Assembly: GCF_010672385.1 (NCBI RefSeq)
Contig: NZ_JAAHGT010000029.1
Location: forward strand, 1 to 32,926
Source of the DNA: Okeania sp. SIO2F4
GTDB taxonomy: Bacteria > Cyanobacteriota > Cyanobacteriia > Cyanobacteriales > Microcoleaceae
Reading direction: 5' to 3'
Length of the DNA: 32,926 nt
This document shows positions 12,595 to 27,652 of the stretch, one piece after another; within the stretch, counting starts at the first letter, position 1, and the number at the start of each line of letters is the position of its first letter. The position numbers and the translations under genes are program-made. The notes below the pieces were generated by a model. The model had not been told where the DNA came from and ran no database searches. It saw only the letters and a program-made list of their open reading frames with translations.

Positions 12595-13762
12595 TTACTC
12601 ATCCACAGGCATTGACGGGTCTTGCCCGACCGCATCTGTTGAGTGCGTCTTACATTCTATTCGCGAAGCGTTTCCGCAGGAAATGGAGACCTCACCAATT
12701 AGCACTCGCTTTCTTAAATTTATACTTGCGTTTAAATCTCGATCTATTGACAAGCCACAGTCAGAGCAATCATAAGTTCTCAGACTTAATGGCATATCTT
12801 GAACATGGCCACACCTGCAGCAAGTCTTTGACGATGGAAAAAATCTATCTACTATTGCTAACTCAGAACCGTACCACTGAGTTTTATATTCAAGTTGTCG
12901 TCGAAACTCATAAAACCACTATCTACTAATTGACGCAAGCTAGCTTATGGTTAGCCAACATTCCAGTCACGTTCAAATCCTCAATAACAACAATGCCGTG
13001 GTTCTTGGCGCTTATTGTTGTCAATTTATGAAGTGCATCTTTGCGGATATCAGCTACAGGTCTATGCTGTTTAGCTAGCTTGATTACAGCTTTGTACCAA
13101 TTATTTGAATGCTTGACTTTTCTGCTAACTTGGCGTTGTAATCGGGCTAGTTTGTTTTGAGCTTTACGGTAAGGTTTAACACTTGGGAAAACTTCACCAG
13201 TGCTTAGTGTTGCTAGTGTCTTAATTCCTAAATCAACACCTACAACTTCAGTAGTTTTTTGTGTTGAAGTCGGAGTGAATTCATAACTACAGCTAAGATA
13301 CCAATCATCAGCCTGTTTGTTAATAGTTATCTTTTGAGTGGTTGCTTCGATTGGCTCATAAATTTTTACAATACCGATAACAGGTAATTTGTGACACTAA
13401 CCATTTAGTTCTATTGGTTTTCCACAATTATTAATTGTGAAAGAGTCATGTTTACCTTTCTTCTTAAATCTTGGATGTTTAGCTAGACCTTGAAAAAACC
13501 TTTTAAATCCTTCATTCAAGTTAATAAAAGCATACTGATAAACTTTAGATGATCAGCTCTTCATCCATAGATAAAGTGGTTTTGTGTGGTTGGTAAAAAC
13601 TTCTCTAAGTTTACGAGTATTAGGCTTGTAACCATCTTTATAGGCTCTTATCCACAAATTTAACCCCCAGTTCTAACGCCAGCGTGAGTAGCCCGCGTGT
13701 TGAGCCATCAGAGTTTTTTACTTATTATTTAATTTAAGTTTTCTTTTGATTGACTTGTACAT
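12595..13762 (-). pseudogene. tnpB: tnpB of an IS607-type element, degenerate
   Basis: Starting at ATG 13762 (MYKSIKRKLKLNNK), the frame is soon broken by stops, but the whole protein can be traced. AQHAGYSRW is followed by HPRFKKKGKHDSFTIN, then RuvC-I VVGVDLGIKTLATLS, RuvC-II IVVIEDLNVTGM, the zinc ribbon CCRCGHVQDM ... YDCSDCGL, and RuvC-III IDRDLNASINL. Stops occur near 13710, 13552 and 13397, and a frameshift near 12900-12950. A CGCGAAGCGTTTCCGCAGG small dispersed repeat (12661-12679) has been added to the C-terminal tail. It lies 15 bp downstream of the serine-recombinase gene, as in IS607 elements. It is inactive as nuclease, though most catalytic motifs are still readable. Confidence 0.88.
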
Positions 13763-23354: not shown

Positions 23355-23601
23355 AAATAGTTCATTTATAGCCTCTAATTTATTTTTTTTATGAGATATT
23401 TATTTTCAATAAACTTCGGAATTACTTGAAATTAAGCAATAGTTATAAATTGCCCAGATGCAACCTGTATCTAAAATTTGTCAAAAATCCCCAAATACAT
23501 CAAAACTCTGAAATTATTATGGTTGCTTCCTAATTCCAAGAGATTTTATTCACCGAAAAAGTGGGTCCTCTCCTGCCTTATAGGGCGACTTTAATTCTGG
23601 A

Positions 23602-23727
23602 TTAGGTTAAATCATCAATCATTTCTTCTACTATTTGTGTCATATTTTTTTTCCTTATTAAAGCATATGATTTTAACTGATCTAATCTCTTACTTGATAG
23701 CCTAAATTTTAATGTTTTATATTTCAT
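23602..23727 (-). CDS. Small ribbon-helix-helix (CopG/MetJ-like) protein
   Basis: This 41-aa protein starts at ATG 23727: a basic strand TLKFRLSSKRLDQLKSYA, a turn, and a helix KNMTQIVEEMIDDLT fit the ribbon-helix-helix DNA-binding fold (strand residues Lys-Lys-Phe-Arg; hydrophobic spacing in both helices). The longer reading frame to 23832 adds a hydrophobic non-conserved stretch and is less likely. It is divergent from tnpB, occupying the place of tnpA in IS605 elements. Probable role: repressor of itself and tnpB. It could alternatively be an orphan antitoxin. Confidence 0.65.
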   Translation of the reverse strand: MKYKTLKFRLSSKRLDQLKSYALIRKKNMTQIVEEMIDDLT

Positions 23728-23822
23728 AAAACCCCACAATGTACGCACAAATATATTATAATAGAGATATAGAAAAAACCCTACGATATTAATTTTTAGT
23801 GCAGTAATTAAGGTCGAAAACA

Positions 23823-25082
23823 TTGAAAGCAAGATATAAATATAGATGCTATCAAAACCTTATACAACAAATTAATTTAGCTAAATTATTTGGATGTACA
23901 AGAGTAGTTTGGAACGATGCTTTAGCTCATTGTATTCAAGAGTTTAAATCATCAAAGAAAAAGCCAAGTAATGCTGAACTACAAAAAGTATTTATTACTC
24001 AAGCTAAGAAGACAATTGAAAGAAGTTGGTTAACCGAAGTATCAGTAGTTCCATTACAACAATCATTAAACGATTTGCACCAAGCTTATCAAAACTTTTT
24101 CAATTCAGTTATAGGTAAGCGTAAAGGAGTAAAAGTTAAACCTCCAAAATTCAAGAAGCGTAATTCAAAACAGACAGCTATATTTAGTTTGAGAGGATTT
24201 AAGTTAGGTCAAGATAAGGTATATTTAGCCAAGATTGGAAACCTTAAAGTACATTGGTCAAGACCGTTACCATCACCTCCATCATCAGTAACAATAATCA
24301 AGGATTGTAGGGGCGATTCGCATAGATGCCCCTACTAGATATTTTCTGAGTTTTGTTGTAGAAAAATCAGCAGATGTTTCACCTAAAACTGAAAGTTATA
24401 TTGGTATAGATTTAGGGATAAGCACATTTGCCACATTGAGCAATGGCGATAAAATTAATGCACCAAAACCATTAAAGAAAAATCTTAAGAAATTAGCCAA
24501 ATTTCAACGCAGGCTTGCCAAGAAAATACCAGGTAGTAAACGTAGAGAAAAAGCTAAGTTAAGGGTGGCTAAATTACACGCCAGAATTAAAGATATTCGT
24601 AAAGATTTTCTGCATAAATTGTCAACTAAACTAACTCGTGAATATGACACAATAATATTAGAAGACCTTAATGTTTCTGGAATGATTAAAAACCGTAAGG
24701 AGCGCTAAAGCAATCAGTGACTTAGGATGGAGGCAATTCAGGACTTTAACTGAGGCTAAATGCCAAAAATATAGTAGGGAATTTAGAGTTATTTCTAGGT
24801 GGGAGCCAACAAGCCAAAAGTTTTCTCCGATACGGTTTCCGTGGTGGTAAGAAAGAATTAGATGTAAGAGAATGGACTTGTTTGAACTGTGGGATGCACC
24901 ACGATAGAGATGTCAATGCTGCTATCAATATTCTTAATGTTGTAGAAACAGTAACTCAACCAAAAACCAAGGTTGAAATTGTTGAAGCTGAAATATTGGA
25001 ACCTGTGCAGTTATCTCTTTTCAATACAGTCGCCGACGGACAGCGGTCGATTATATTAAAAACGAGCATCGAGCAAATGTAA
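23823..25082 (+). pseudogene. tnpB: tnpB, broken by a small palindrome and frameshifts
   Basis: It begins at TTG 23823 (MKARYKYRCYQNLIQQINL), preceded by AAGG, and is intact through GNLKVHWSRPLPSPPSSVTI. A 29-bp palindrome at 24307-24335 then shifts the frame. The RuvC domain continues: YIGIDLGISTFATLS (RuvC-I), IILEDLNVSGM (RuvC-II), a frameshift at about 24700, [20 protein letters not shown], a second frameshift with loss of the first zinc-ribbon Cys pair (about 24815), then [20 protein letters not shown] (second Cys pair and RuvC-III) and a stop at 25080-25082. Catalytic acids are still readable, so the decay looks recent, but the chain cannot be made in one piece. Confidence 0.88.
24307..24335. 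repeat. 29-bp palindromic small dispersed repeat inserted in tnpB
   Basis: GTAGGGGCGA...ATGCCCCTAC has 8-bp arms GTAGGGGC/GCCCCTAC. The sister tnpB at 25770-25785 reads SANRYFLSF at this point with no palindrome, showing that it is an insertion. It causes the frame change that kills the gene. Confidence 0.82.
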
Positions 25083-25172
25083 GACTCGCCGTAAAAAGCA
25101 AGCTGATTGCAATGAAATGCTAACCCACTCTGAGTCTTTTAAACAGCTTAGTTTGTTTGATTGATAGATGGG

Positions 25173-25207
25173 AATCTCCGCGCCTAACCGCCGGAGAGGA
25201 TGTCAAA
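25173..25207 (+). mobile_element. IS605-type right-end hairpin / omega-RNA 3' end
   Basis: AATCTCCGCG and GCCGGAGAGG can pair around CCTAACC, followed by ATGTCAA. This resembles the right end at 10720-10755. Under the TnpB model the guide would be the bases directly after 25207. Confidence 0.6.
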
Positions 25208-25354
25208 ACCAAAATATGACTACTACTATATATAGTCATAACTAAGGTATTTACCAAAAAATTGGGGTATGCGCCTCGTCCTTATAGGGCGACTTTTTAG
25301 TTGATGAGCGTTTCAATAAATATGTTATAATTTTGCTAGTTTTAAACTCAGACT

Positions 25355-25809
25355 ATGAAATCTAAATTTAAGTACCGTATATATCCAACGCCGGGACAAA
25401 AAACCAGATTAGCAAAGCTATTTGGTTGTGTTTGCTGCGCAACGCTGCGCGAACGTGTTGTCTGGAACGATAGTCTAGCTTGCTACCTGTGAAAAGTATG
25501 CTCTTAGAGAAAAGAAACCAAGTAATTCAGAACTACAAAAACAGTTTATTACTCAGGTTAAAAAGACTGAGGATAGAGAATGGCTATCAGAAGTTTCTGC
25601 TATACCATTGCAGCAATCAAGGAAGTCACGCGCAAACTGCTAGATTTACAAAAGGTGGCTTTAAAGTTGGTGAGCATAAAGTCTCTAGCAACGCAAAGAT
25701 TGGAAAGCTGAAAATTGTTTGGTCAAGGGAACTACCTACTGTTCCATCATCAGTAACAATAATCAAAGATTCAGCCAATAGATATTTTCTGAGTTTCGTA
25801 AGTGCCTGA
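25355..25809 (+). pseudogene. Second tnpB, internally deleted and 3'-truncated
   Basis: From ATG 25355, MKSKFKYRIYPTPGQKTRLA and KLFGCV are followed by seven extra codons (25433-25453, TGCTGCGCAACGCTGCGCGAA, a GC-rich small dispersed repeat), then VVWNDSLA and a stop. In other frames come KPSNSELQKQFITQ, WLSEVSAIPLQQS, then a jump of about 40 codons to GGFKVGEHKVS and KIGKLKIVWSRELP, ending at RYFLSFV. The RuvC domain is absent. It is similar to the preceding tnpB over the shared part and has the same left-end motif at 25280. The next 265 bp (25810-26074) hold nothing recognisable. Confidence 0.85.
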
Positions 25810-27450: not shown

Positions 27451-27652
27451 TATACCAATTTGATAAATGTTTGTTACAAATGGTAGGGACGTTGCATGCA
27501 ACGTCCGTACGGAAGAAGGAAGAAGGAGAAAATCTTGAAAAAAAGGGAAAAATGATAGATATAACTATCTAAAATGAATTGGAGGAGCTATTTTTCAGCA
27601 CATCCGATAGGGAGCTACCTTTTCGTAACATTCTTTTTTCAAATTGGTATTA
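27451..27652. mobile_element. MITE, 202 bp (ATACCAATTTG family, copy II)
   Basis: Left end TATACCAATTTGATAAATGT and right end, reversed, TAATACCAATTTGAAAAAAG share about 20 of 27 terminal positions as inverted repeats, including TGTTAC. The interior carries a perfect GGACGTTGCATGCAACGTCC palindrome (27486-27505), itself a dispersed repeat. No coding capacity is seen. Confidence 0.78.

Follow-up and report, generated by a model that had tools for sequence, protein, structure and literature searches.

Two Decayed tnpB Units Lie Side by Side

The window analyzed here is a stretch of 32,926 nucleotides from Okeania sp. SIO2F4, and it carries two adjacent tnpB units on the forward strand (Table 1). 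The initial annotation, made from the sequence alone, had noted an exact 17-bp motif to the left of both units and a 41-aa ribbon-helix-helix (RHH) gene lying divergently between the motif and the first tnpB, with no Y1 transposase present. These points are borne out: the motif copies start at positions 23576 and 25280, the RHH frame is open on the reverse strand, the tnpB frame starts near 23823, 95 bp from the divergent RHH gene, and no Y1 match is listed on the window contig or on any of the five contigs of the genome that carry RHH genes. One correction concerns the tnpBs, both of which are broken: the first is split into four frame pieces between 23823 and 25073, and the second survives as pieces from 25355 to 25800. 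Because both tnpBs are pseudogenes, the window copy is best described as a relic that has an open RHH gene.

The first tnpB can still be recognized by PF12323 and PF01385, which exceed the Pfam cutoff, with PF07282 slightly under it. Pieces of similarity to the copy on C1070 span 23550 to 25185 and include the RHH gene. The flank of the first element reads TTCAC, and TTTAC or TTCAC is also found ahead of several other copies. Comparison of copies places hairpins, identified by eye, in a subterminal position at both ends; in the window, the 5′ arm of the left hairpin is decayed.

One of the breaks in the first tnpB is an inserted palindromic repeat near 24305−24340. This short palindrome, GTAGGGGCGATTCG..CGCCCCTAC, and its variants also lie inside tnpB or RHH genes at loci L003, L004, and L044, the last of which is a repeat inside the RHH region of C655; such insertions break or shift the host tnpB and RHH genes. 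A second dispersed palindrome, of the GGACGTTGCATGCAACGTCC type, is present at 27480−27510 of the window and at L004. Further TnpB helix-turn-helix (HTH) matches are found in the window at 13631−13762 and 19743−19871, both on the reverse strand.

Table 1. Features of the two adjacent tnpB units, with positions counted from the first nucleotide of the window
Feature	Position	Strand	Basis or remark
First element: left end, RHH gene, tnpB pseudogene, right end	23554..25206	+	ends set by eye
Left-end subterminal hairpin, 5′ arm decayed; contains the 17-bp motif (23576−23592)	23570..23592	+	
RHH gene, 41 aa, open frame	23602..23727	−	ORF and AlphaFold2 model
Operator-like direct repeat CCCACAA / CGCACAA, period 11 bp (starts 23733, 23744)	23733..23750	.	
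TATTATAAT, −10-like box toward tnpB	23754..23762	+	by-eye reading
tnpB pseudogene, four frame pieces	about 23823..25082	+	Pfam and tblastn frames
Right-end hairpin and terminus GGGAATCTCC..GGAGAGGATGTCAA	25170..25206	+	last block conserved with C1070
Second element, truncated, without RHH gene: left end (motif 25280−25296) and tnpB pieces (25355−25800)	25255..25809	+	

One Left End with Three Fillings

The motif, CCTTATAGGGCGACTTT, has no other match in the window at up to three mismatches (chance mean 0.10), so as a mark of these two units it holds within the window, but not across the genome, where it is dispersed: four copies are exact and 32 are found at up to two mismatches, against one for the reversed control. 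A general dispersed repeat had been named as an outcome that would undo the original reading. The motif is dispersed as a transposon left end, and the reading was not refuted on this count. Other left ends in the genome read TCGCCC-TTATA-GGGCGA or a near variant, followed by CTTT, and by this comparison the 17-bp motif makes up the loop and the 3′ arm in a predicted subterminal left-end hairpin. A same-strand tnpB match lies 56−234 bp downstream of the motif in at least 13 of the 32 copies, which is a lower bound because 150 of the 288 tnpB candidates in the genome were scored. Eleven of these copies have tnpB at 56−70 bp, and the two that contain an RHH gene, C725 and C1070, have it at 234 and 199 bp, respectively. 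In C827, what comes after this left end is a broken, reversed Y1 gene and then tnpB. As tnpB alone, an RHH gene (C725, C1070), or tnpA (C827) can follow the same left end, we regard these copies as one family with three fillings of a single slot.

Cas12 descends from TnpB, and tnpB elements without a transposase are numerous. IS605 elements consist of a divergent tnpA and tnpB, while those of the IS1341 type contain tnpB only. The elements described here resemble IS200/IS605 elements in their TnpB, in their subterminal end hairpins, and in a left end held in common with a relative that has a broken tnpA; they differ in that an RHH gene stands in place of tnpA. Judged from the shared left end, the RHH gene sits literally in the tnpA slot of IS605-type elements. 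There are 22 Y1 matches in the genome, seven of them in the same divergent slot and none on the five RHH contigs. The tnpB-only elements that share the left end are present in several copies without an RHH gene.

The RHH Gene Accompanies tnpB across Cyanobacteria

A protein search of the same genome returned six RHH matches at five places, each of which has a tnpB match in divergent orientation 67−99 bp away. One weak additional match, C595, appeared with a later profile (E = 2.5 × 10−6) and lacks a tnpB in the divergent position. With this genome counted in both cases, the RHH profile matches 33 of 98 related genomes and at least 41 of 386 genomes from the phylum, at most 17 candidates per genome having been scored in the phylum search. 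A scan of a collection of bacterial and archaeal genome contigs, in which one short conserved peptide pattern was used, gave 79 loci, every one of which has a cyanobacterial title; a divergent tnpB is present at 46 of these named loci and absent at 32, and one locus is at a contig end. For loci L041−L243, 213 RHH matches (E ≤ 10−4) were reduced to 206 by joining split genes and to 179 distinct places by merging identical ones. A divergent tnpB lies within 300 bp at 124 of the 179 places (48 are without one, and seven are at contig ends), with a gap between the two matches of −31 to 197 bp and a median of 37 bp. For a small control, we took the three RHH matches to PF01402 in this genome, which are on contigs without a listed tnpB. 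Chance adjacency was rejected on the strength of the five own-genome places, the 124 of 179 cyanobacterial places, and the PF01402 control. The search of cyanobacterial genomes called for by the initial annotation thus returns the arrangement in many genomes besides this one, where an RHH gene unlinked to tnpB elsewhere would have spoken against it. Within reach of these searches, the RHH-bearing form of the TnpB element appears to be widespread in cyanobacteria and restricted to them. At the same time, the 48 places without a divergent tnpB indicate that the RHH protein does not serve TnpB alone.

In two public plasmid records, the RHH gene is either labeled as a hypothetical protein or left unannotated beside an annotated tnpB, and we found no description of an RHH gene beside tnpB in open-license full texts. 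Nine RHH relatives are on putative viral contigs (L352−L360).

The RHH Gene Belongs to the Mobile Unit

That the RHH gene lies within a repeated mobile unit is seen by comparing the C667 and C645 copies, which have 90% identity over 1663 bp, RHH gene and tnpB included, and unrelated flanks. Most RHH places belong to mobile repeats. Mapping of the boundaries by empty sites, which had also been proposed, succeeded in part: the C645 copy sits in a gene whose frame is open in the relatives G003, G013, and G018, where the site is unoccupied, and has a stop in G002, but 136 nt of that gene beside the insert are missing in G000, so that the junction is not clean.

Intact relatives of TnpB/OrfB are found beside RHH genes, and a full-length tnpB frame is present at 80 of the 124 RHH-tnpB places. 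An alignment shows D, E, and D in the catalytic columns of 66 of the 79 distinct full-length TnpBs. In the remaining 13, which form one group, the E column has W within a different local sequence. Counting the catalytic residues with a fixed text pattern found all three in 25 of 81 proteins, which was too strict, and the alignment was used instead. The RHH-side TnpBs with an FGWxxG-type sequence for the catalytic Glu motif (L082, L114, L116−L120, L123, L126, L149, L163, L164, and L198) possibly have a rearranged active site. RHH genes accompany TnpBs of two quite dissimilar groups. The distances between RHH proteins correlate with those between TnpBs at r = 0.40 overall (none of 999 permutations reached this value) and at r = 0.08 for pairs under 70% TnpB identity; the weak correlation among distant pairs indicates that partners have been exchanged over time.

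A Short RHH Protein under Purifying Selection

AlphaFold2 models the 41-aa window protein, as a single chain, with helices at residues 12−25 and 29−40 (mean pLDDT 86.1, pTM 0.53); the RHH strand forms only in the dimer, and the model is of one chain. The top Foldseek matches in the PDB are RHH proteins, mostly with query TM scores of 0.7−0.86, although none reaches E ≤ 0.001, the chain being very short. The best solved structural matches include ParG, CopASO, Arc, PutA, and CopG. The protein is assigned to the ribbon-helix-helix superfamily on its predicted strand-helix-helix fold. No Pfam or NCBIfam match was found for it at the thresholds used, and there is no credible solved relative by sequence. 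Among the relatives that were scanned, L061 just passes the DUF6364 cutoff (27.5 versus 27.3 bits). The nearest Pfam profiles to the RHH family are DUF6364 and, more weakly, RHH families of the antitoxin type. Members of the family are about 41−60 aa long and contain little besides the RHH fold. Pooled dN/dS is 0.12 over 186 pairs for RHH genes beside tnpB and 0.09 over 124 pairs for those without it, for pairs that were picked by similarity and are non-independent; on these ratios, the gene is evidently under purifying selection.

The Pfam neighborhood raises the question of an addiction module, in which the RHH protein would be the antitoxin-like half and TnpB with its guide RNA would be toxic, to be unleashed when the RHH protein is lost. 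RHH antitoxins do act as repressors of their own operons, which would agree with such a role. However, a protein of about 41−60 aa leaves little outside the RHH fold for binding a partner, many tnpB units are without an RHH gene, and the RHH gene persists where tnpB is absent, so we consider an addiction module highly improbable.

A Candidate Operator with an 11-bp Period

Between the RHH gene and tnpB, the window interval carries a direct repeat with a lag of 11 bp. Repeats of this kind were sought in the 45 bp by the RHH start of nonredundant intervals, at least six of seven positions having to match at a given lag. With this test, which is motif-free but was run after the repeat had been seen and a half-site chosen by eye, 40 of 87 RHH-tnpB intervals contain a lag-11 repeat (60 shuffles: mean 3.9, maximum 9) and 47 fail; the window interval is separate from the 87. 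No lag other than 11 gives a comparable excess in these intervals. The repeat is also present at 11 of 34 RHH places that have no divergent tnpB, three contig-end places included (shuffles: mean 1.4, maximum 4), and in one of 60 control windows upstream of 30 own-genome tnpBs that have no RHH gene. A palindromic operator was considered as well, but inverted repeats are barely enriched (13/118 and 7/48 versus 9/150 control windows). The direct-repeat test was used in its place, and the operator claim rests on the direct repeats. A box resembling TATTATAAT was seen by eye 3′ of the repeat in many relatives.

Arc binds two half-sites that are one turn apart. The likeness of our system to Arc, CopG, ParG, and the antitoxin RHH repressors is in the predicted fold and in two half-sites spaced by one turn; the difference is that Pfam and NCBIfam return no match for the window protein at the thresholds applied. 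The 11-bp-period repeat between the RHH gene and tnpB is a plausible operator composed of two tandem half-sites.

The repeat also bears on another account of the RHH gene, that it was captured by a transposon and is copied along with the element as a hitchhiker with no job. Most of the places are indeed in mobile repeats, and related copies are non-independent. Neutral carriage is nevertheless at odds with a dN/dS of about 0.1, with a lag-11 repeat that recurs across nonredundant intervals, and with RHH genes beside two quite different TnpB groups. This account is disfavored, and we give it very little credence.

A Structured RNA Replaces tnpB in Sister Elements

A second partner, a structured RNA of ∼350 nt, is found at 26 of the 48 RHH places that lack a divergent tnpB, with some copies partial; L209, L145, and L053 are examples in which the RNA lies opposite the RHH gene. 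In complete copies, similarity covers ∼265 bp to one side of the RHH start and ∼400 bp to the other. In 18 of 20 aligned copies, as read by eye, TTAAC stands before the left end; the right end closes with GTACTTCAC, and the flanks are unrelated. These RHH-RNA elements have clear ends, are present in several copies, and contain no nuclease gene. The remaining 22 of the 48 places have no match to the RNA profile, and L218 and L219 are among them; these two, at separate places of one genome, are 97% identical over 736 bp and align with the class while falling outside the profile.

RNAalifold, applied to a sequence-only alignment of 20 copies, predicts 33 pairs over the 300−400 nt opposite the RHH gene. 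In this alignment, 97.2% of the cells are paired and 19 pairs are changed on both sides, and the covariation score is 0.458, compared with 0.157 ± 0.013 for shuffled and at most 0.112 for slid alignments, the structure having been predicted on the same alignment that was scored. U-G pairs favor the strand read from the RHH promoter toward the right end. Single-sequence folding is uninformative (z = −1.37 for the proposed strand and −3.74 for the opposite one), so the assignment of strand rests on the G-U pairs in the alignment.

The RNA profile matches 27 loci at 26 places, always at an RHH gene that lacks a divergent tnpB, and the profile search finds no such RNA beside RHH-tnpB units. A DNA search for the RNA matched at least 22 of 386 genomes, two candidates per genome being scored; of 30 RNA loci obtained this way, 12 have an RHH match (two of them weak) and none has a TnpB match. 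A known Rfam family was rejected as the identity of the RNA, as the gathering score was never reached, in 15 RHH-RNA loci or in the window; at a lax threshold, L209 gave three matches far under the gathering scores. Outside the RHH loci, the profile matches over its last 48 positions only, at the right end of another tnpB of this genome, L035. As the right end of the RHH-RNA elements resembles that of an ordinary tnpB element, we infer that the ∼350-nt RNA derives from a guide RNA. Stand-alone omega RNAs without a nuclease exist among IscB elements, and the likeness would be a guide-type RNA element minus its nuclease; what differs here is an RHH gene alongside the RNA, a TnpB-like right end, and no Rfam family at gathering score.

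We tentatively propose, at somewhat less than even odds, that the RHH-RNA elements form an undescribed class of ∼700-bp mobile elements in cyanobacteria, composed solely of an RHH repressor gene and a divergent ∼350-nt TnpB guide RNA. The nuclease would be supplied in trans, and the RHH protein would be a common regulator of guide RNA dosage with or without a nuclease.

Retention of the RHH gene in tnpB-less elements that have clear ends and several copies, together with its place in the tnpA slot beside the left-end hairpin, is what would be expected of a mobility factor, which would bind the element and aid its excision or recruit a transposase in trans, with repression secondary. Against this, the direct repeat is at the divergent promoter region, away from the left-end hairpin, and tnpB-only elements with the same left end are likewise present in several copies without an RHH gene. 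We regard a role mainly in mobility as unlikely.

A Proposed Repressor in Place of a Transposase

Association with tnpB, a place inside the element, purifying selection, a predicted RHH fold, and the repeat are observed. The interpretation that we prefer, with a probability of roughly three in four, is that the window contains the decayed remnant of an IS200/IS605-type element in which a divergent RHH gene of 41−60 aa stands in for the Y1 gene, and that a pair of RHH dimers on the 11-bp repeat represses both the RHH gene and tnpB with its guide RNA. Two RHH dimers would bind the direct repeat one DNA turn apart. Once bound, they would repress two promoters, that of the RHH gene and the divergent one that serves tnpB and the accompanying guide RNA, by which an element without a transposase would keep its nuclease and guide RNA at a low level that limits itself. 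We infer, along with binding and repression, that the RHH-tnpB element moves in trans, by Y1 enzymes made elsewhere. The original suggestion of a non-autonomous TnpB element controlled by its own small repressor is partly supported, the RHH-tnpB association and the operator-like repeat being in keeping with it. The window tnpB is broken, and RHH genes are kept with an RNA where there is no tnpB, which makes a repressor of TnpB only too narrow a description.

For type V-K CASTs of cyanobacteria, small RHH genes named Arc_1 and Arc_2 are reported to lie upstream of cas12k in the opposite orientation (PMC9938897), and the term TnpB does not occur in that paper. In both systems, the gene of a cyanobacterial RNA-guided effector has a small RHH gene upstream of it that points the opposite way; the difference is that the Arc genes belong to Tn7-like CASTs. 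When small upstream ORFs at 30 cas12k loci, Arc_1-like ones included, were compared with our RHH profile, no match was obtained (best E = 0.82), and there is no Cas12k match in G000 at E = 10−60. By this comparison, no homology of the TnpB-side RHH genes to the CAST Arc genes was found.

The RHH-TnpB layout thus parallels that of the CAST Arc regulators by way of a different RHH family. A candidate TnpB repressor with a readable operator bears on how a DNA-cutting enzyme may be restrained in elements that have no transposase. The RHH-RNA elements, in turn, offer a candidate new RNA family and possible guide RNAs that live without a nuclease.
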